A DNA stretch of 64,000 bases from Anaerolineae bacterium (GTDB taxonomy: Bacteria > Chloroflexota > Anaerolineae > Promineifilales > Promineifilaceae). Below, piece by piece: positions 44,576 through 59,380 of the stretch. Each line of letters starts with the position of its first letter. Position 1 is the first letter of the stretch. A program made the translations under genes and the position numbers. A model generated the notes under the pieces. It saw only the letters and a list, made by a program, of their open reading frames with translations, was not told where the DNA came from and did no database searches. Location of the stretch: NCBI GenBank assembly GCA_023954475.1, contig JAMLHW010000001.1, positions 1-64,000 of the forward strand, given 5' to 3'.

Positions 44576-44702
44576 AAACCGATCTTATCAGATTTGATGT
44601 ATTCTGCGCCTTTGCGCCTGCACTGCCCATTTCACGCTAACACACGCCAGGCCGACCCACTACAGGGCGCACGATCCTGAATATAAAATGGGGAGAATGC
44701 CA

Positions 44703-46574
44703 ATGCGACGTCTATCAATATTTGCTCTAATCTTTGGAATCGCACTCATTACACTGGCCACACTTGACTGGAATACCGACAGTAGCGTCGCCCATGCTCA
44801 ACTACCGGACGGTCATCCGTCCATCGCTGTGACACAGGTACCGACCACACCAAACGACTTCTTTTTGCCCGGTACGCAACCCGCAGAACTCGAAGACGAC
44901 ATTGCACCACCCTCGCAATGCATTGCATGTCACAAAAATTACAGCAGCGCAATCGACATGCCCGAAGAACACGAAACATGGCGGGCCTGGTCCGGCAGCA
45001 TGATGGCTCAGGCTGGGCGTGATCCTGTATTCTGGGCCGCACTGGACATTGCCAACGCTGACGCCAGCTTTGCCGGTGATTTCTGCTTGCGTTGCCATCT
45101 GCCGACCGCATTTATGAACGGCGACGTGACTCAAAATTCCACGATTGACGATTTCACGCCCAATCAACTCGAAGGAGTCCAGTGCGAAGTTTGCCACCGC
45201 CTCGTCGATCCGGTCTACAAAGCAGGCATAAGCCCTGAACGCGACCAGGCAGTACTGGAAGACATCGATCCACCCGTATTGCTTTCCCAAAGCGGAAGCT
45301 ACATCATAGATCCCGTCGACGAACGACGCGGCCCATTTGACTTGAGCCTGGATTACACAACAAGCCCCCATACCGGACAATGTAGTGAAAATGTCGAAGG
45401 GTACCCCGAATGCTGGCCTCTTCAATCACCTTACCACCAACAAGCGGCACTTTGCGGAACCTGTCACGACATCACCAATCCTGCATTCACCTGGGATGAC
45501 AATGCCGGTGAATACGTACTCAACGATTTGGACACCCCCAGCGATCTCGTCGACGGTTTTCCCATCGAACGCACCTACTCCGAATGGTTATTGAGCGATT
45601 ACAACACGCAGGCCGGCATCTTTGCGCCGCAGTTTGGCGGCAACAAGACATTCGTATCTACTTGTCAGGATTGTCACATGCGCGACACAACGGGCATGGC
45701 CGGATACATTGGCCTTGAAGTGATTCGCAACGATATGCCTCTGCACGACTTGACCGGAGCCAACACATGGGTTCCGACCACGCTGCCTCTCCATCCTAAC
45801 CCGACGATCAGTGGTGCGTTTGACACTGCTACCGACCCGCTTGGAGCAGATCGGCTGGAAGCACTGCAACGCGGGATCGAACGCGCCCGCTACATGCTTG
45901 AAAACGCAGCAGAAGTCACGGCAACTGTCGGCGATGGTAATCAGCTCACTGTCAAAGTAGTCAACAACAGCGGGCATAAATTGCCGTCAGGCTACGCCGA
46001 AGGCCGGCGTATGTGGCTGCAAATCGAGGGCTATGATGCGGACGGCAATCTGATCTATTCATCAGGTGCGTACAATATCGCCACCGGCGACTTGACTTAC
46101 GACAGCGACATCATGATATATGAAGCGAAACAGGGTATGACTGAAAGTCTGGCGGCGCAAGTAGGCTTGCCGCCTGGTGAATCGTTCCATTTTGTTCTCA
46201 ACAATGTCATCGTCAAAGACAATCGCATCCCGCCGCGCGGCTATGAATTTGATGCCTTTGCCGCTGCCGGTGCTGCACCGATGACCAAAAGCAATCCAGA
46301 CCCGACTCGCTACGCAGACGGACAATATTGGGATGAGGTAGTATATGAACTGCCGGATGAGGTTGTCACCGGCGTTGTCCGCTTGTTGTTCCAGGCATCG
46401 TCAAAAGAATACATCGAGTTTCTACGCGATAACAATCCCAACCCCGGCGATCCTGACAACAATGGGGCCATTTTGTTTGATCTGTGGGAGCAGACAGAAC
46501 GCAGCAAGCCGGAAGTGATGGCGGAGATCAGCTTTGGCGGCTCTCAAGTTTATCTGCCGGCTGTTTTGAAGTAG
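44703..46574 (+). CDS. Secreted multiheme (five CxxCH) cytochrome c
   Basis: 623 residues; ATG 44703 has GGGGAGA six bases upstream (ATGs at 44688 and 44697 are also in frame). A signal peptide (LSIFALIFGIALITLATL...AHA) exports it. Five heme motifs are visible: CIACH, CLRCH, CEVCH, CGTCH and CQDCH, all in the first 340 residues. The C-terminal 250 residues are a beta-rich domain with a heme-protein-like NNSGHKLPSGYAEGRRMWLQI segment. This resembles cytochrome c554/NrfB-like electron carriers of unknown partner. It is followed after 7 bp by an SF1 helicase gene, a functionally odd neighbour. Unlike nearly all other genes here of similar size it contains no TCGGCCGA palindrome, possibly a sign of recent arrival. 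Confidence 0.88.
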   Translation: MRRLSIFALIFGIALITLATLDWNTDSSVAHAQLPDGHPSIAVTQVPTTPNDFFLPGTQPAELEDDIAPPSQCIACHKNYSSAIDMPEEHETWRAWSGSMMAQAGRDPVFWAALDIANADASFAGDFCLRCHLPTAFMNGDVTQNSTIDDFTPNQLEGVQCEVCHRLVDPVYKAGISPERDQAVLEDIDPPVLLSQSGSYIIDPVDERRGPFDLSLDYTTSPHTGQCSENVEGYPECWPLQSPYHQQAALCGTCHDITNPAFTWDDNAGEYVLNDLDTPSDLVDGFPIERTYSEWLLSDYNTQAGIFAPQFGGNKTFVSTCQDCHMRDTTGMAGYIGLEVIRNDMPLHDLTGANTWVPTTLPLHPNPTISGAFDTATDPLGADRLEALQRGIERARYMLENAAEVTATVGDGNQLTVKVVNNSGHKLPSGYAEGRRMWLQIEGYDADGNLIYSSGAYNIATGDLTYDSDIMIYEAKQGMTESLAAQVGLPPGESFHFVLNNVIVKDNRIPPRGYEFDAFAAAGAAPMTKSNPDPTRYADGQYWDEVVYELPDEVVTGVVRLLFQASSKEYIEFLRDNNPNPGDPDNNGAILFDLWEQTERSKPEVMAEISFGGSQVYLPAVLK

Positions 46575-49104: not shown

Positions 49105-50415
49105 ATGAGTTTTGACAATCCTTTCTATCATCGTGGTGCGATTCGGCAGGAAGTCCATTTTCAGGGTCGCGCAGCGGAAACCAGTCAGATTTTGGGTTTG
49201 CTGCGTAATGGACAAAGCGTGTCTGTCATTGGTCCGCGCCGCATCGGTAAAAGCTCGCTGCTCATCCACTTGTGCCGAACGCACATCCGCGAAGCACACC
49301 GTCTTCAACCTCCGCAAGCGTTGTTTGTACTGATTGACTGTCAGGAATTGGGTGGTTCTTTGGCGGAAGAAGTGTACGATGCAATTCACACGGGTTTACT
49401 TGACGCCGCCACAACGGCCGGTATTGATCTGAGCGGCTTGCCGGAATCGGGGACATATCGGGCATTGGACCGTACACTCCATCACATCTTGCAAAACGAT
49501 GCCGGCGTAGTGTTGTTGCTCGACGAGTTTGAGTTATTGGCTGCGAACGAACAGTTGACGCCCTATTTTTTCGCACGTCTGCGCGGTCTGACAACAAAAT
49601 ACGGGCTGGCGTATATCACGGCCAGCCAACGGCCATTGTACGCCATCACAGCTGATGAAGAGGTGTTGAGTTCGCCCTTTTTCAATATTTTTGTCACGAT
49701 GCAGTTGGGGTTGTTTTCGGCCGAAGATGCCTATGCGCTCATGAAGGAAAGGTTGCGCAACGCACCAATCAAGTTTGATGATGAGTTGATTGATTGCCTG
49801 ATCACGCTCGTCGGGCCCCATCCGTTTTTCCTGCATGTCGCCGGCTACCATGCATTTCAGGCTATCGCATCGGCCGAATCAGATACAGACATCTCTTTCA
49901 CCGCCATTCAGGAAGCCATAGAAGTCGAAGCTGAATCCCATCTCAGCTACTTGTGGAACAATCTCAATTCTGAGGAACAATACACCCTGGCTACTGCCGA
50001 CGGCCCCATTGACATCTTGCGCATGCTCGAACAACAATGCTTGCTGCAATCCGGCGAAGACGGTTACAACTATACGGGCAGTATTTTGCGCCGCTTCGTA
50101 CGCCGTCAACAAGTAGCCGGCTTGATTCAGGCCGATCCGTTTGTCATCGATCCCCAACGCCATCAGGTCAAAGTAAAGGGACGCGAGATCAGCCTGACAA
50201 CGTCCCAATTCCAGCTTTTGACCTGTTTAAGCGAGCGCGCCGGCCAGGTGGTACACGGTGATGATTTGGAACGCGCAGTGTGGGGTGATGTATTGCTTGA
50301 TGATCCCGATCGGCTCAAGACATTGATCAAACGCCTACGCCGCGCCCTTGAGCCTTACGGCAACTGGATCGTCAGTGAGCGTGGGGTAGGATATGCGCTG
50401 CGACCTCCGGAGTAA
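49105..50415 (+). CDS. ATPase fused to an OmpR-type winged-helix DNA-binding domain
   Basis: 436 residues, no membrane span. It opens with an NPF motif (5-7) and FQGR (19-22), then Walker A GPRRIGKS (43-50) and Walker B VVLLLDEFELL (Asp140, Glu141). The C-lobe helices resemble STAND/archaeal-type ATPases (SPFFNIFVTMQLGLFSAEDAYALMKERL, GPHPFFLHVAGYHAFQAI). Residues 346-436 are a complete Trans_reg_C winged helix: ISLTTSQFQLLTCLSERAGQVVHGDDLERAVWG and LIKRLRRALEPYGNWIVSERGVGYALRPPE. There is no receiver domain, so ATP or partner binding, not phosphorylation, would control DNA binding. The next gene starts inside its last 23 bases and encodes a receptor with a related ATPase, suggesting that the two work as a pair. 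Confidence 0.88.
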   Translation: MSFDNPFYHRGAIRQEVHFQGRAAETSQILGLLRNGQSVSVIGPRRIGKSSLLIHLCRTHIREAHRLQPPQALFVLIDCQELGGSLAEEVYDAIHTGLLDAATTAGIDLSGLPESGTYRALDRTLHHILQNDAGVVLLLDEFELLAANEQLTPYFFARLRGLTTKYGLAYITASQRPLYAITADEEVLSSPFFNIFVTMQLGLFSAEDAYALMKERLRNAPIKFDDELIDCLITLVGPHPFFLHVAGYHAFQAIASAESDTDISFTAIQEAIEVEAESHLSYLWNNLNSEEQYTLATADGPIDILRMLEQQCLLQSGEDGYNYTGSILRRFVRRQQVAGLIQADPFVIDPQRHQVKVKGREISLTTSQFQLLTCLSERAGQVVHGDDLERAVWGDVLLDDPDRLKTLIKRLRRALEPYGNWIVSERGVGYALRPPE

Positions 50416-53400
50416 GCCGCTTGCCCAAACCGGCAACGCTGCTCCTTGCGGCCTAGTGCGCCGTCTCCTGCTTTTGGCTCAACCTGTGCACCGTCCCGCT
50501 ACGGCCCTCTTTTTCTGGCTGCTCATCCTCATCGTTATCGGATTGCCGACTGCGGCACGTGCCCAAACCGACGAACGTCCCCCGGCTTACTGGCAATTCG
50601 ACGCGATTGGTCAAGTCGATAATATCGTTTCGGCCGATATTGACAAAGACGGCTTCATTGAGTTTCTCGTTTCTGCCAACAATCAGCTCGACCTTTTACG
50701 TGGTGATGGACAGTTGTTGTGGAGCTTCACGATGCCGTCGTCCGGCCTGCACATGGCTTCTATCGATAATTCGGCCGATGCTCCCCGCAACATAGCCGTC
50801 GCCGGCGAAACCGGCCTCACATTACTCGATCACGACGGCGACCCATTATGGTCGAACCCACGCGCTATTGATGCGCCTGCTGCTGCCATCGCCGGACTCG
50901 ATTACAATAACGACAACAGACAAGAACTGCTGCTGCTCATGCAAAACGGCACCGTGCAATTATATGAGCAGGACACACGCCTACTCTGGGAATTCCCCGG
51001 CGTCGATGACACAACGCACAACGCAACGCCACAGCTGATAGTGGCTGATTTCAATCGCGATGGGCAGGATGAGGCAATCGTCGGTTACTTCGACCCGCAA
51101 GGTTTCAGTAAACTGGACATGATCAGCAGTGACGGTAAGCGAATCTGGGAACGCATTATCGAAGGTCGCATCAACGCCTTGACGCCCGTTGAATTTGATC
51201 CCGATGCGCCGTTGGAAATCGGCGTCGGAACAAGCCGTGGACGGCTCCATCTGTTTTCGATCACGGGCGAGGATCGCTGGCCGCGCACACTCAATGCTCC
51301 TATAACCAGTCTGGCATCGGCCGATTGGCCGGGAGATGAACGCGTGCTGGCGGCCGGCACAAATCAAGGTCGTGTCGTCTTGTTCAATGCTGCCGGGCAA
51401 CGCGTCTGGGACAAATTTGTATGCAGTATTGAAGAGACACGGCTGGTCGATTCGGCCGAATACGAAACCTCTCGCTGTGCCGACGGGCCGGACAGCCGAA
51501 TTGATGCGATCAGCGCAGCACCGCTCGATCTCAACCGTCGGCAGCCGGTCAACCTCGTCATCACCTACACCGACAGCAACGCCACCAGCAGCGATGTTGC
51601 CAACATCTTGCTCGTCAACAACAACGGCAACATTCTCGCCGAATTCATTTCCAATTCACCGCCCGGCCTGTCGCAATTGGTCGACCTCAATCACGACAAT
51701 GTCAGCGAATTGCTCCTCACCAGCTTTGGCACCGTCGAACTGCTCAGCCCGGCGGCGACAACACGACAAAACGTCGAAAATCTGGAAGAATGGCCGTTTC
51801 GGCTACGTGCCCGCCCAACCGCTGCGATAGCCGCCGACATTGAAGGAGACGGGCAAAATGAATTATTTGTCGGGGCCAGCGATGGGCGTCTGCTGCGCTT
51901 ACGCGCAAACGGCGTCGCTGACTGGGTGACATCTCTAAGCGGCGAAATAACCGATCTACAGTTGGTAACAGGTACAACAGACGGTAGCCAGCAAACCGAT
52001 ATTGTCGTCGGCTTCAATGGGAGAGCTGAGCGCGATGGTCAGTTGCAAGGCTATCTCGATCTATTCGGACTCGATACGCAGCGCCGCTGGGCCGAACCGT
52101 TTGAACTGGCAGGTGAGTTAACGACGTTAACCGTCGCGGATACGCTGTTACAATATCCTCTGATTGTGGCCGGCTCGACGACAGGCGAAATCGTAGCACT
52201 CGACCAGGCAGGCACGCTTGTCTGGCAACAACTGCTTGACCAGCCAATAGCGCACATTGCCGTGTTACGCACGTCTGACAGCAGCGGCAACGGATCTGCC
52301 GAATCAACTGTCAGTATCATTGCTGCGCATTCGACCGGTTTCATCGCTTATGATCGCAACGGAACGCAACTCATCAATTTCTCGCGTTACCCATCGTTTG
52401 ATGAACTGCCCGGCACCGTGGCCGGCGGTGGCGAGGATGTGTGCAAGAGCGCAGCGGATTTGTTGCAATTGCTGGAGCAAGGTACGCTCAACAATGTTAT
52501 CTGTTTGGGCAGACCACTGGCTACGTGGGAACGTCTGTTGGGGCGCAGCCTGGAACTGAACAGCATGCAAACTGATGACAATGTGTATGTGCCGATTGGT
52601 TTGCAGCAATGGCGGCAAAGCGAATTCATAGGCGGGGTGCTGGACCGCGCTTCGGCCGAATTCGACAACATCACCACCGTTTATCGCGGCGACCTAACCG
52701 GTGACGGACGCGACGACGTCGCGCTCGGCAGTCTCGACGGCAGCATTTTCCTCGATCTCAGTGACGGCAGCCAATCAACTGTCGAACTGACCAGCCCCGT
52801 GTTAAATCTGACCGGCATTTCCGGCCCTAGTGGGCCTCCCGGATTGCTCGTCACAACCGAGAACGGCCTGGTCAGCCTGTACCGTTTTCAGCTCAATCAT
52901 CCACCGCTCGTCACGTCTTTGGGCATTGAAAATGATGAACGCAACAACCGCTACAACCTGGGCATGGCAATCATCGACGCCGAAGGAGACGAAGTCGGCG
53001 TCGATCTGGAATTGTACGATCCGGAACTGGATGCTTGGATATGGCAGGAACCGGCCCAATCGAGTGGCAACACTATTTTCTGGGCTATCGATCCGCCCCA
53101 ACAAGCCGATGCGCAGTATCGCATCAATTATCGTGAAGGGGCACATCTGGGGACGATTGAGCCGGGTGTATCGCTGGCAGCCGTGCCGGTTGAATCCAGT
53201 TCAGCATTGCCAACCACGTGGCTATGGTTGTTGCTGCCGATCAGCTTGATCGTCGGTTATACGGCCTGGCGGCAGACACGCTCGCCGCAGGCACAGGTGA
53301 GACGTTTCTACCGACGCCTCGTTCAGACGCCGCATCGCAGTTTGCCGCTGATCGAAGCCGAATACAATCGCAGTGGCGGGTCGCCTGATTTCCTGCTGAT

Positions 53401-55393
53401 GCTAGCCAGTACAGCCCGCAATCAGGGCAATCAAATTATTGCGGGGTTGGTGGATGGGCTTTATCTGCTGGCAGATCGGCCGAATGCCGCCGTTTCGATC
53501 ATCGACACAACGCTGAGTACCATTGCGGGACGGTCAATGACTGACTGGGAACAGTTTGATTTGTGGCATGAACTTTATCGTACCAGCAGTAAAATGTTGT
53601 CGGCAACGTCGATCACCAATATCGTCTATTTGCGTCCCCGCCTGCTGCGTCTACTCGAATTGTTTGAAAACGAACAACGCAGCGAAAATGGTTTTACCGA
53701 ATTGCAACCTATCATGAACAGTCTACGCGACAGCGAACGCGTTGAATTGGCTGAAGATCGACTCGTCTATCTCAACGAAGCGGCTGTGCTGCTGCGCCGT
53801 CTCAATATACGGTTGGGTGACCGCTTGCCGCATATGGAAAACCGTCTGGCAAGACCGATTGTGCAGCGTTGGATGGGATTGGTGACGGCTGAGATCGAAT
53901 CGGTTCGTGGCCGCGCCCGTATCTGGATCACGCTCAAAACGACCAATATCGCGCCCGTCGGTGATACTGTTTTGGCGTTGGAAGTGAAAAATATCGGCCG
54001 AGCGCCCGCCGAAGAATTGACGGTGCGCCTGGAAGAACACAATTATTGCATCAACGGAAACGAACAGGGCGTGCCGTTTTTGGCTCCCGGCCGGTCAAAG
54101 GAAGTGAATTTTGCCGTGAAACCACCGCAGGAAGAGCAGTTCCGCGTCTCATTTCAGGTGGAGTACAGCGATCGCAACCAGCGCCATCAGGTGTTTGAGT
54201 ATGCCAATGTCGTGAATGTGTTGCGCCCGGTGCGCAATTACGAACCGATTTTGAATCCCTATGCACCAGGCACACCGTTGCGCAAGAATAGTCGCTTGTT
54301 TTTCGGCCGAACCGATCTCTTTCAGTTCATCGCTGAAGAAGCCGGTCGTCTGGCCCAACAGAGCGTGTTGATCCTCGTCGGGCAGCGCCGCACGGGCAAA
54401 ACATCAGCCCTTTTGCGTCTCGACACCTACTTGCCGGACAATCTGCTGCCTGTTTATATCGATTGTCAATCTCTCGGCATTGTCTCCGGCATGGCAGCCT
54501 TTTTTACCGACATCGCCTGGCTGATTGCCGATACACTGGAAGCGCGTGGTTTAGCGCTCACTGTACCTGAAATGGAGACAATCGCGCACAATCCCGCACA
54601 TTGGTTCCAACGCGAGTTTATTCCCGAAGTGGTCGCGTTGTTGCCCGACAACATGACCATTGTGCTGGCGTTTGACGAGTTCGAAGCATTAGAAAGCCTG
54701 GTTAATGACGGTATTTTGCCGGCCACTTTCTTCACTTACCTGCGCCATCTTATGCAGCACGGCACCGGATTGAGCTTTATCTTTGCCGGTACGCACCGTC
54801 TGGAAGAAATGACCAGTGATTATTGGTCGGTTTTGTTTAACATCGCTCTCTACAAAGAAGTCCTGTATCTTTCGCGTGCGGCGGCTACTCAGTTGATTGC
54901 CGAACCAGTCGCGCCGCACATTGTTTATGACGATCTGGCTCTGGACAAACTGTGGCGCATGACGGCCGGTCATCCGTATTTTCTGCAACTCGTTTGCTAC
55001 ACGTTGGTCAAACGGGCTAATCAGGAGCGCACCGGTTATGTAACCATTTCAGATGTCAACACAGCGGTGGACGAGATGATTCAATTGGGCGAGGTTCATT
55101 TCGCGTATTTGTGGCAACAGTCGACCAAGCATGAAAGGCTGGTTTTGACAGCCACCGCGCATCTGATGGAACGCGACACGCCTGTACGTTCGGCCGAAAT
55201 TGTGCAGGCTTTGGTTCCATACGGCATACACCTGGAGCCGGCTCAAGTCTCAACCGCTCTCAACCGCCTGGTACGACGCAGCATCATGCAAAACGTCACC
55301 GACGGCCCGACATTGATGTACGAAGCACGTATTGGGCTGGTTCTCAACTGGGTAGAGCAAACGAAAGGGCTGAATCAACTGTACGAAACGTAA
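50393..55393 (+). CDS. Giant receptor: exported beta-propeller, one membrane span, inside STAND-like ATPase
   Basis: 1666 residues. Signal segment 37-57 (ALFFWLLILIVIGLPTAARAQ). Residues 60-925 outside are repeated beta-propeller/FG-GAP-like blades (QVDNIVSADIDKDGFIEFLV, IVADFNRDGQDEAIVGYF, AIAADIEGDGQNELFVGA and VYRGDLTGDGRDDVALGS), with Asp-rich calcium-type loops. A span lies at 943-961 (WLWLLLPISLIVGYTAW). Inside come a helical region (965-1200), a CARDB-like sandwich (1205-1290) and then NPYAPGTPLRK, FFGR (1303-1306), Walker A GQRRTGKT (1330-1337), Walker B LAFDEFEAL (Asp1428, Glu1429), and a helical end with winged-helix-like features (1560-1660). The ATPase matches the order and motifs of the upstream gene. 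Start overlaps that gene by 23 bp. Probable signal receptor; ligand unknown. Confidence 0.87.
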   Translation: MRCDLRSKPLAQTGNAAPCGLVRRLLLLAQPVHRPATALFFWLLILIVIGLPTAARAQTDERPPAYWQFDAIGQVDNIVSADIDKDGFIEFLVSANNQLDLLRGDGQLLWSFTMPSSGLHMASIDNSADAPRNIAVAGETGLTLLDHDGDPLWSNPRAIDAPAAAIAGLDYNNDNRQELLLLMQNGTVQLYEQDTRLLWEFPGVDDTTHNATPQLIVADFNRDGQDEAIVGYFDPQGFSKLDMISSDGKRIWERIIEGRINALTPVEFDPDAPLEIGVGTSRGRLHLFSITGEDRWPRTLNAPITSLASADWPGDERVLAAGTNQGRVVLFNAAGQRVWDKFVCSIEETRLVDSAEYETSRCADGPDSRIDAISAAPLDLNRRQPVNLVITYTDSNATSSDVANILLVNNNGNILAEFISNSPPGLSQLVDLNHDNVSELLLTSFGTVELLSPAATTRQNVENLEEWPFRLRARPTAAIAADIEGDGQNELFVGASDGRLLRLRANGVADWVTSLSGEITDLQLVTGTTDGSQQTDIVVGFNGRAERDGQLQGYLDLFGLDTQRRWAEPFELAGELTTLTVADTLLQYPLIVAGSTTGEIVALDQAGTLVWQQLLDQPIAHIAVLRTSDSSGNGSAESTVSIIAAHSTGFIAYDRNGTQLINFSRYPSFDELPGTVAGGGEDVCKSAADLLQLLEQGTLNNVICLGRPLATWERLLGRSLELNSMQTDDNVYVPIGLQQWRQSEFIGGVLDRASAEFDNITTVYRGDLTGDGRDDVALGSLDGSIFLDLSDGSQSTVELTSPVLNLTGISGPSGPPGLLVTTENGLVSLYRFQLNHPPLVTSLGIENDERNNRYNLGMAIIDAEGDEVGVDLELYDPELDAWIWQEPAQSSGNTIFWAIDPPQQADAQYRINYREGAHLGTIEPGVSLAAVPVESSSALPTTWLWLLLPISLIVGYTAWRQTRSPQAQVRRFYRRLVQTPHRSLPLIEAEYNRSGGSPDFLLMLASTARNQGNQIIAGLVDGLYLLADRPNAAVSIIDTTLSTIAGRSMTDWEQFDLWHELYRTSSKMLSATSITNIVYLRPRLLRLLELFENEQRSENGFTELQPIMNSLRDSERVELAEDRLVYLNEAAVLLRRLNIRLGDRLPHMENRLARPIVQRWMGLVTAEIESVRGRARIWITLKTTNIAPVGDTVLALEVKNIGRAPAEELTVRLEEHNYCINGNEQGVPFLAPGRSKEVNFAVKPPQEEQFRVSFQVEYSDRNQRHQVFEYANVVNVLRPVRNYEPILNPYAPGTPLRKNSRLFFGRTDLFQFIAEEAGRLAQQSVLILVGQRRTGKTSALLRLDTYLPDNLLPVYIDCQSLGIVSGMAAFFTDIAWLIADTLEARGLALTVPEMETIAHNPAHWFQREFIPEVVALLPDNMTIVLAFDEFEALESLVNDGILPATFFTYLRHLMQHGTGLSFIFAGTHRLEEMTSDYWSVLFNIALYKEVLYLSRAAATQLIAEPVAPHIVYDDLALDKLWRMTAGHPYFLQLVCYTLVKRANQERTGYVTISDVNTAVDEMIQLGEVHFAYLWQQSTKHERLVLTATAHLMERDTPVRSAEIVQALVPYGIHLEPAQVSTALNRLVRRSIMQNVTDGPTLMYEARIGLVLNWVEQTKGLNQLYET

Positions 55394-56877: not shown

Positions 56878-58287
56878 TCACATCTGCTGCACAGCTTGTT
56901 CGACAGACCCATCCTCCGCACCCACGCCAGGATAAACCGGCAATGTGACCGTAAACGTCGATCCCTGATCGACCTCACTGCGCACGACAATCGTTCCCTT
57001 ATGCGCATCGACAATTGATTTGCATATCGACAGACCCAATCCTGAACCACCCTGCGCCCTTGTCCGCGCCTTGTCGACGCGATAAAACCGGTCGAATATA
57101 TGCGGCAATGCATCAGGAGGAATACCGACACCGGTGTCACTGACAATGATCCGCGCCATACGGTTGGTCTTCGTCAGGTTCATGGTCACCGTGCCACCCG
57201 GTGGCGTGTACTTCGTTCCGTTTTCAACCAGGTTCAGGATAAGTTGTTTGAGCCGATCGGGGTCGCCGAGAACGCGCACTTGATCGACTTCCTTCACGAT
57301 CAATTTTACCGGGCGGTTGAGGAGCAACACCTGATTATATACGTCGAGAAAAATGGTGTCGAGATCGACGAGTTCATGGCGGATGGGCAGACCGCCAACT
57401 TCGGCACGGGCCAGCGTGAGCAAATTGTTGACCAGACGCGTCATGCGTTCTGCTTCTTCGTCAATGGCATCGAGCGATTCTTTGTCGGCCATCCCGATGT
57501 AGCGCATCACGTCGACGTTGCCCCGAATCGAGGTCAGTGGTGTGCGCAATTCATGTGACACGTCGGCCAACAGGCGTTGCTGAGCGCGGAAAAGGTGTTC
57601 CAGCCGTGCCATCAACTGATTAAAGACTTGTGTTAATCGGCCGATTTCATCCTGTGCCCCATCATAGGGAATGCGCAAACTCAGATCATTGGCGCTCGTT
57701 ATTTTGGCTGCGGCTTCAATGATCGTATCGAGTGGAGCCAACATCCGCGGCAAAATCGCATACAAAACCAGCAGCGACGCCGACAAAGCTGCCAGACCAA
57801 TAAACACCGCCGCCGTCGTCAACTGTCGATAATATTGATAATCTGTTGTGACACGCCCCACCTGCAAATAGCCGACAATCTGCATCTCGCCGCCCACATC
57901 ACGCGTAATCGGCAGCGTCAACACCTGTAATGTCTGATCCTCAAACTGTGAGGATTGCGCTACCCGGTTTGTTCCGAATCCGTTCGGATCAAGAACGCGC
58001 GAAACATTAGCCATATTGCGTGACTGACTGAGGATTTCGCCGTTCGCATCAGTCACCACCACAAATGTCGTCTCGGCCTCAATTGGATTTGACAACAACG
58101 GCTCACTGACATCCATTTGATTGATGTTGGTAGCCTGTGCGCGTATTTCATTAGCCACAGCTACCAGCTCTGTGTCGATTTCTTCGAGCACACCATTGGG
58201 CAGACGCGATACAAACAGCGCAAATGCGCCAAATGTCACGGCAAAAATTAACACAAAAAGGACAAGTAAACGATTTTGGATCGACAC
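56878..58287 (-). CDS. Sensor histidine kinase (BaeS/MprB-like)
   Basis: 469 residues with a GTG start at 58287. Two spans (8-26 and 157-180) enclose an outside sensor domain of about 130 residues (VAVANEIRAQATNINQ...TFVVVTDANGEILSQSRNM...IVGYLQVGR), PAS/dCache-like. HAMP follows (181-235), then HisKA with His245 in [17 protein letters not shown] and an ATPase domain (LVENGTKYTPPGG, DTGVGIPPDALPHIFDRFYRVD, GGSGLGLSICKSIVDAHKG). It lies 124 bp after its response regulator, separated by a terminator-like hairpin at 58374-58400. Signal unknown. Confidence 0.92.
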   Translation of the reverse strand: MSIQNRLLVLFVLIFAVTFGAFALFVSRLPNGVLEEIDTELVAVANEIRAQATNINQMDVSEPLLSNPIEAETTFVVVTDANGEILSQSRNMANVSRVLDPNGFGTNRVAQSSQFEDQTLQVLTLPITRDVGGEMQIVGYLQVGRVTTDYQYYRQLTTAAVFIGLAALSASLLVLYAILPRMLAPLDTIIEAAAKITSANDLSLRIPYDGAQDEIGRLTQVFNQLMARLEHLFRAQQRLLADVSHELRTPLTSIRGNVDVMRYIGMADKESLDAIDEEAERMTRLVNNLLTLARAEVGGLPIRHELVDLDTIFLDVYNQVLLLNRPVKLIVKEVDQVRVLGDPDRLKQLILNLVENGTKYTPPGGTVTMNLTKTNRMARIIVSDTGVGIPPDALPHIFDRFYRVDKARTRAQGGSGLGLSICKSIVDAHKGTIVVRSEVDQGSTFTVTLPVYPGVGAEDGSVEQAVQQM

Positions 58288-58373
58288 AGATGGTCAGAAA
58301 GGAGCTACTGGTTCGGTGAATAGGTGAAACTGAGTTATTCCGAAAAACTCGGTTTCCGGTATTTGAAAACAAA

Positions 58374-58400
58374 ACTGGTAGCCGTTAGCAGGCTACCAGT
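58374..58400 (-). terminator. Terminator-like hairpin between response regulator and kinase
   Basis: On the minus strand ACTGGTAGCC / GGCTACCAGT with a TGCTAAC loop is followed by TTTTGTTTTC. It lies 12 bp past the response-regulator stop and before the kinase start. It should lower kinase expression relative to the regulator. Confidence 0.75.
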
Positions 58401-58411
58401 CGTTAAATGCG

Positions 58412-59095
58412 TCAGTCCAGATCGGGTTCGCGCATCACATAACCGATACCGCGTACCGTGTGAATGATGCGAGATGCGCCTCCGGCTTCTGTTTTTTGCC
58501 GCAAGTAGCGCACGTACACTTCGATAATGTTGCTTTCACCACCAAAGTCATATCCCCAAACGCGATCATAGATGATGTCACGGGTCAGTACGCGGCGTGG
58601 GTTGCGCATGAACAATTCGAGTAATTCATACTCTTTGGCCGTCAGATCAAAGATGCGGTCATCCCGCTTGCCTTGCCGCGTACCTGTATCCAATTCCAAA
58701 TCGCCGAAACGATATACTTCCGGCTGGGTAGGTTGTGCACGGCGTAGCAGGGCGCGAATGCGTGCCAACAATTCTTCAAATGAGAATGGTTTTACCAGAT
58801 AATCGTCAGCGCCGGCATCGAGACCCATGACACGATCTTCAATTGCCTCTTTGGCGGTTAGCATCAAGACCGGCACGTCGCCACCTGCACGCAGACGCCG
58901 ACAAACTTCGATGCCATCCATGCCCGGCAGCATCACATCGAGCAAGACCAGGTCGGGTGCATTTTCTCGCGCCAATTCCAGGCCAGTCGGCCCATCTTCG
59001 GCGACATCGACGCGGTAGCCTTCATAACTCAGACCGCGATGTAGAAATTGGCGGATGCGTTCTTCATCTTCAACAACTAAAATTCTGGCTGCCAT
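58412..59095 (-). CDS. OmpR-family response regulator (MprA-like)
   Basis: 227 residues from the ATG at 59095, which has GGAG seven bases upstream; upstream in-frame sequence is not family-like. Receiver: [16 protein letters not shown], Asp53 in [16 protein letters not shown], Lys in [14 protein letters not shown]. Winged helix: [53 protein letters not shown] and ending [16 protein letters not shown]. It is the partner of the kinase at 56878. Target genes are unknown. Confidence 0.94.
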
Positions 59096-59380
59096 AATGA
59101 CACTCCGTTTACCGGCAATGCGGGCCGGAAACCGCTGAGGTATGCAGTGATTAAATATCGCTTTCAGCCAATGTAATGTAGCTGTTGCACACCGATAGTA
59201 CTGTAGCAAGATTATAGTGTGACTGTCAATCAGTGCAACGGCGACCCGGTCTTGTCTACTGTTCGCTAACGTTTCGGCCGATTGTCGATAATTGAAATTC
59301 ATAGTCATTTCAATGGTTTTCAGCCGGTTCAATTGTGCTTTTTTCGGCCGAAAGTACGCCATTTATAGAAACCATACAAC

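Follow-up and report, generated by a model that had tools for sequence, protein, structure and literature searches.

Locus organisation and domain anatomy

The DNA analysed here, referred to as the window, comprises the first 64,000 nucleotides of contig JAMLHW010000001.1 from an Anaerolineae bacterium of the family Promineifilaceae (Chloroflexota; genome of 5.1 Mb). It contains two neighbouring genes, P0001 and P0002, whose products each carry an ATPase of the STAND type. A first-pass annotation had taken the two for a signalling pair made up of a soluble DNA-binding regulator and a membrane receptor, and both open reading frames were found on the plus strand where it had placed them (Table 1). 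We refer to the ATPase types of the regulator and the receptor as A1 and A2, respectively.

Domain anatomy was assigned from Pfam profile matches against curated cut-offs. P0001 is soluble, with no membrane span, and combines a match to nSTAND2 (PF20702, residues 40–291; 64.6 bits against a cut-off of 24) with one to Trans_reg_C (PF00486, residues 359–432; 58.8 bits), in agreement with the proposed soluble ATPase ending in an OmpR-type DNA-binding domain. The same profile search found no receiver domain in P0001, as had also been proposed. The recognition-helix segment of the winged helix, PDRLKTLIKRLR, is invariant in orthologues and, in a low-confidence model, the winged helix resembles solved OmpR-family domains.

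For P0002, the anatomy read earlier from the sequence (an exported propeller, one span, a CARDB-like domain and an ATPase inside) is borne out by Pfam matches and by comparison with orthologues. A signal peptide is found at residues about 36–57, with a hydrophobic stretch at 36–54, and the propeller region contains five strict matches to DxDxDG-type loops (residues 82, 170, 219, 431 and 482). The span of the window protein itself falls under a strict hydropathy cut-off; a clear span lies 393–406 residues ahead of the conserved DCQSLG motif in 35 of 36 aligned orthologues. The sub-threshold CARDB match covers residues 1194–1259 and the AAA/STAND match residues about 1300–1590; in several other A2 proteins, too, the ATPase follows a CARDB-like domain. 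Searched with Pfam profiles, P0002 carries no OmpR winged helix, its ATPase does not match the nSTAND2 profile, and neither protein contains a histidine kinase or HATPase domain.

The 23-bp overlap reported previously between the two genes arises when the first ATG of the receptor reading frame is taken as its start. It is merely formal because that start is not conserved, the spacing among orthologues varying from overlap up to gaps of tens of bp. The earliest conserved receptor residues (YWxY) lie past the signal peptide, suggesting that the real start may be a downstream GTG, in which case the genes would not overlap.

Table 1. Features of the regulator and receptor genes, in window coordinates.
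Feature	Position	Strand	Basis or remark
Regulator P0001, 436 aa, A1-type (nSTAND2) STAND ATPase with C-terminal OmpR-type winged helix	49105..50415	+	
A1-type STAND ATPase domain, residues about 4–302	49114..50010	+	PF20702; groups with all other A1 domains in tree
Regulator Walker A GPRRIGKSS, residues 43–51	49231..49257	+	37 orthologues, conservative changes only
Regulator Walker B VLLLDEFE, residues 136–143	49510..49533	+	DEFE invariant in orthologues
OmpR-type winged helix, residues 339–436	50119..50412	+	PF00486; 74% mean identity to orthologues
Receptor P0002, up to 1666 aa	50393..55393	+	Real start may be GTG downstream of first ATG
Signal peptide region, cleavage probably after TAARA	50393..50563	+	Hydrophobic stretch; conserved mature N-terminus YWxY next
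Extracellular FG-GAP/PQQ beta-propeller region, DxDxDG-type loops	50564..53032	+	PF13517, PF13360, PF01839
Single membrane span, residues about 941–961	53213..53275	+	Nearly constant distance to ATPase, 35 of 36 orthologues
Cytoplasmic helical region, residues 970–1185	53300..53947	+	All-helical in low-confidence model
CARDB-like beta-sandwich, cytoplasmic side	53960..54241	+	PF07705 19.2 bits, sub-threshold; beta-strands in low-confidence model
A2-type STAND ATPase domain, residues 1286–1590	54248..55162	+	AAA_22 38 bits; A2 clade in tree
Receptor Walker A GQRRTGKTS, residues 1330–1338	54380..54406	+	37 orthologues, conservative changes only
Receptor Walker B VLAFDEFE, residues 1424–1431	54662..54685	+	DEFE invariant in orthologues
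C-terminal helical/winged-helix-like tail of receptor ATPase	55163..55390	+	Weak Penicillinase_R 13.8 bits; helical in low-confidence model

The two ATPases are homologous and intact

The first-pass annotation had described the two ATPases as being of one type, with the same order of motifs (NPF/NPY, FxGR, Walker A, DEFE Walker B). This order is indeed seen in both P0001 (DNPF...FQGR, GPRRIGKSS, LLLDEFE) and P0002 (LNPY...FFGR, GQRRTGKTS, FDEFE). The domains are homologous, sharing 31% identity over 283 residues (E 2e-16), and a profile–profile comparison relates them with a probability of 100% (E 9e-42). Walker A and Walker B are intact in both ATPases of the pair across the 37 orthologues and in nearly all other pairs; Walker A is likewise intact in nearly all A1 relatives and in every A2 relative examined. 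The regulator's ATPase is thus neither degenerate nor unrelated to that of the receptor. Both domains also contain conserved arginines, the placement of an arginine finger being limited by the low confidence of the structure models. These models were built from 3–4 sequences (predicted local distance difference test, pLDDT, 61 and 58) and served only for secondary structure and for the winged helix.

The pair is a family-wide, single-copy feature of Promineifilaceae

We surveyed 98 related genomes, 52 of them from Promineifilaceae, for orthologues. A regulator orthologue (54–70% identity) is present in 48 of the 52, and the four genomes with no match are drafts of 78–83% completeness; no full-length regulator match above 40% identity was found outside the family. 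The receptor is present in nearly all genomes that carry the regulator, the exceptions being draft or incomplete assemblies. The two genes are adjacent in 40 Promineifilaceae genomes (adjacency counts, here and below, were read by hand from tables of draft genomes). A search for the two architectures in adjacent order had been suggested earlier, and rare co-occurrence is not what it returned: regulator and receptor occur together far beyond chance. The host genome has a single nSTAND2 domain and a single A2 domain, encoded side by side. The pair looks to have been inherited almost throughout the family as a single copy, apparently vertically.

Conservation is uneven along the two proteins. Expressed as mean identity of the 37 aligned orthologues to the window proteins, the winged helix is the most conserved part of the pair (74%), followed by the ATPases of the regulator (64%) and the receptor (62%), the helical region (44%), the CARDB-like domain (38%) and finally the propeller (29%). 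Judged by these identities, the profile is that of a constant intracellular switch joined to a fast-diverging sensor on the outside.

A1 and A2 ATPases occur as one of each

To this survey we added 60 further loci with a related ATPase, 20 of which (L113–L132) were partly chosen for looking paired and 40 (L133–L172) by rank alone. A tree of 105 ATPase domains split 63 A1 from 42 A2 domains without error (support 1.00), so that by phylogeny the two ATPases are sister subfamilies, A1 on the output side and A2 on the sensor side. When scored with profiles from the window pair, all simple two-gene loci consist of one A1 and one A2 gene, in either order, with wide margins between the two scores (for example 210 versus 32 bits). 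The larger clusters L118 and L120 contain additional members.

Because the first 20 loci were partly selected as paired, we drew the adjacency rate only from the rank-chosen loci and from a sample of 151 Chloroflexota genomes, in which the A2 and A1 profiles were run separately. A second STAND gene adjoins the first in 21 of the 40 rank-chosen loci. In the phylum sample, 27 genes score as A2. For 21 of them an A1 gene is found no more than about 6 kb away; the other six comprise two located at the end of a contig and four that stand alone. With 1–3 A1 genes per genome, chance would produce such adjacency at a rate of about 1% or less, so that partnership with an A1 ATPase is near-obligate for an A2 ATPase.

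Among paired genes, the A1 tree also mirrors the A2 tree (r 0.87 over 39 pairs, with none of 2000 permutations as high). The correlation persists in a dereplicated set of 14 pair families (r 0.63, none of 5000 permutations as high) and, since these families are largely paralogous to each other, shared species history is unlikely to explain it. The rule of one A1 plus one A2 and the mirrored trees are what a heterotypic assembly predicts, and they support the view that P0001 and P0002 form a cognate pair. A shared locus is by itself no proof of contact, and the genes are separable; the two might instead be co-transcribed STAND proteins of related function that act on separate targets and never meet. 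We regard this as improbable, given that the one-of-each rule, mirrored trees over paralogous families and linkage in 21 of 27 cases would be difficult to account for if the two had no function in common.

Sensors and outputs vary around the paired ATPases

Around the two ATPases, the attached modules differ from pair to pair, with propeller, seven-transmembrane/GAF, HEAT/NACHT or RelA/SpoT sensors and OmpR, Ser/Thr kinase or EAD7 outputs. Of the other pairs, L115 is the closest; both ATPases are retained, with a Ser/Thr kinase in place of the winged helix on the A1 side and a multi-transmembrane region plus GAF in place of the propeller on the A2 side. In other pairs A1 is joined to EAD7, and A2 to TCAD9/NUDIX, HEAT/NACHT or TPR modules. 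The OmpR output is seen again alongside HEAT/NACHT sensors (L118, L119) and alongside RelA/SpoT (L161, L163, L170). Several related pairs show a 4-bp gene overlap, which is consistent with coupled translation.

Whether this variety amounts to a general signalling class in Chloroflexota seems to us evenly poised. In such a class, sensor-side A2 and output-side A1 STAND ATPases would serve as a dedicated heterotypic relay onto which varied sensors and outputs are plugged, distinct from two-component, extracytoplasmic function (ECF) and one-component systems, and the window pair would be its vertically inherited surface-to-gene form.

The modules bear on two other explanations of the pair. In the first, the assembly would anchor or organise DNA at the membrane, in the manner of ORC-like ATPases with winged helices, rather than control transcription. 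The low-confidence models do resemble ORC/CDC6-type and archaeal AAA+ folds. OmpR-type winged helices, however, are transcriptional in characterised relatives, and the existence of sister pairs with kinase or EAD outputs suggests signalling; we consider DNA anchoring very improbable.

In the second, the pair would be a counter-invader (conflict) system of the nSTAND2 two-gene operon type, acting through transcription or recruitment rather than through a toxin. A1 is a member of nSTAND2, relatives of the same type carry modules that typify such systems (EAD7, TCAD9, NACHT or FGE), and the published nSTAND2 operon likewise encodes two STAND proteins (PMC8195603). However, the pair is nearly universal and single-copy in Promineifilaceae, has no effector domain and gives no significant PADLOC match (best E 0.003), and both of its NTPases are intact whereas one is eroded in the published operon. 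A conflict role thus appears unlikely, if somewhat less so than two proteins that never touch.

Two further groups of loci may be recorded here. A second pair common in Promineifilaceae consists of an nSTAND2–Ser/Thr kinase and a multi-span CARDB–STAND receptor (L113, L114, L132–L143 and L145), often with a 4-bp gene overlap; the kinase partner was checked with Pfam in L113. At L161 (3882–8518), L163 (1694–6440) and L170 (7811–12605) the A2 ATPase forms part of a RelA/SpoT fusion protein, with HD_4, RelA_SpoT, TGS and ACT domains in L161, and the partner is a STAND–OmpR regulator. This fusion protein is an extra Rel homologue, besides two further ones in those genomes, and its synthetase match is shortened. 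In the host genome, outside the window, a RelA/SpoT homologue lies near an OmpR-family gene on the same strand (G000:C1:602670–604170).

A conserved element upstream of the regulator

Footprinting across orthologues revealed an element, TTTACs-TT-N8-TT-NNN-CATTACAAT, that is common to 26 of them upstream of the regulator and mostly ends 6–10 bp ahead of its start codon (for example in L104 and L112). The element fits a −35/−10 promoter of a nearly leaderless transcript. The spacer is conserved above that of 31 other promoters sharing the −10 class, so that an operator may overlap the promoter. The window's own regulator promoter does not have the element. In L112, four TTTACG-like heptamers stand in tandem.

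A two-part STAND switch as the probable mechanism

Taking these results together, we think it likely that the two genes encode a cognate receptor–regulator pair whose core is a two-part STAND ATPase switch. A ligand, which might be a polymer, a molecule on a surface or another cell nearby, would be sensed by the extracellular propeller, and the resulting change would cross the membrane by the single span and travel along the helical stalk and CARDB-like domain until it reaches the intracellular A2 ATPase. In an ATP-dependent step, A2 would then form or dissolve a hetero-oligomer with its A1 counterpart in the soluble regulator, so that the signal either builds an assembly that clusters the winged helices or releases the regulator. 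Altered clustering or location of the OmpR-type winged helices would in turn alter the transcription of target genes, with no histidine–aspartate phosphotransfer involved. Of this scheme, we infer the contact between A1 and A2, its dependence on ATP, the transcriptional output and the sensing of a ligand.

Several observations weigh against the scheme. The two genes are both kept but lie apart in G031, G044, G047, G049 and probably G034, implying that linkage is not strictly required. Solitary STAND–OmpR regulators with no adjacent A2 gene exist, suggesting that an A1-type ATPase can act alone or in trans. The low confidence of the structure models weighs on the proposed contact. As to the output, the conserved upstream element is not separable with certainty from a plain σ70 promoter, and a search for its pattern in the 52 Promineifilaceae genomes returned six matches, two of them at the regulator itself, and no recurrent second site.

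Neighbouring genes and solitary relatives

Other genes near the pair were considered as parts of the system. The histidine kinase and response regulator genes at 56878–59362 were rejected because they lie on the opposite strand and their place beside the pair is not conserved. Two frequent neighbours, the UvrD-like helicase upstream and the histidine phosphatase downstream, look unrelated and were set aside. Directly upstream of the helicase and the pair, at 44688–46574, lies a gene whose product looks secreted, contains several CxxCH motifs and weakly matches MtrC/MtrF-like cytochromes.

The solitary STAND–OmpR genes make up a family found across Anaerolineae (L123–L127, L152, L153, L155, L158, L160, L166–L168 and L172), to which many of the unpaired loci belong. 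Its members mostly have another P-loop (GxSNxGKS) and no STAND neighbour. One of them, in L124, adjoins a PspA/IM30 gene.

Comparison with known systems

The first-pass annotation had called the pair undescribed, which is too strong. In 2021 Kaur, Iyer, Burroughs and Aravind defined nSTAND2 from a two-gene operon that they predicted to be a counter-invader system (PMC8195603, Figure 6C). Both proteins of that operon have a STAND core, which in one of them is eroded and joined to effectors (GT4 or HEPN); a hetero-multimer was predicted and the operon was called mobile (PMC8195603). The principle of paired STAND proteins has therefore already been published, as a prediction. The pair described here resembles that operon in its adjacent genes, in the STAND NTPase core of each product and in its variable attached modules, and A1 is itself nSTAND2. 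It differs from the operon in that both NTPases are intact, that an OmpR winged helix takes the place of GT4, HEPN or a comparable effector, that the distribution is not patchy (48 of 52 family genomes) and that the partners are a membrane receptor and a DNA-binding regulator. What is new is thus the combination of receptor and regulator in which each NTPase is intact and inheritance is family-wide, and within the open-access literature we found no description of a STAND receptor in the membrane partnered by a DNA-binding STAND regulator.

If the proposed mechanism is correct, a signal from outside would reach genes through neither phosphotransfer nor a sigma factor, by the same kind of switch that animal and plant immune receptors use. 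Paired STAND ATPases, so far predicted only for defence, would also serve everyday signalling, and one two-part switch would have been rewired many times. Because of the one-of-each rule, heterotypic assembly of bacterial STAND proteins could be tested directly and cheaply, here in a family of filamentous, sludge Chloroflexota whose signalling is otherwise hardly studied.

Among better known regulators, MalT and the AfsR/SARP proteins combine a STAND ATPase switch with a DNA-binding domain, an OmpR-like winged helix in the case of AfsR, in one polypeptide that senses intracellularly. In the pair described here, sensing sits in a separate transmembrane protein with a STAND ATPase of its own. 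Two-component systems with an OmpR-family regulator share with the pair a membrane sensor and a soluble OmpR-type protein, often encoded by neighbouring genes, but P0001 and P0002 carry no receiver, histidine kinase or HATPase domain, and the distinction from such systems drawn in the first-pass annotation holds. CadC and ToxR act without phosphorylation and place an outside sensor, one span and an OmpR-type winged helix in one chain, whereas here the sensor and the winged helix belong to separate proteins, each with an ATPase. Finally, pairs of ECF sigma and anti-sigma factors are likewise two-gene units of a membrane protein and a soluble transcription partner; in the pair described here there is no sigma factor or anti-sigma domain, and ATPases stand on both sides.

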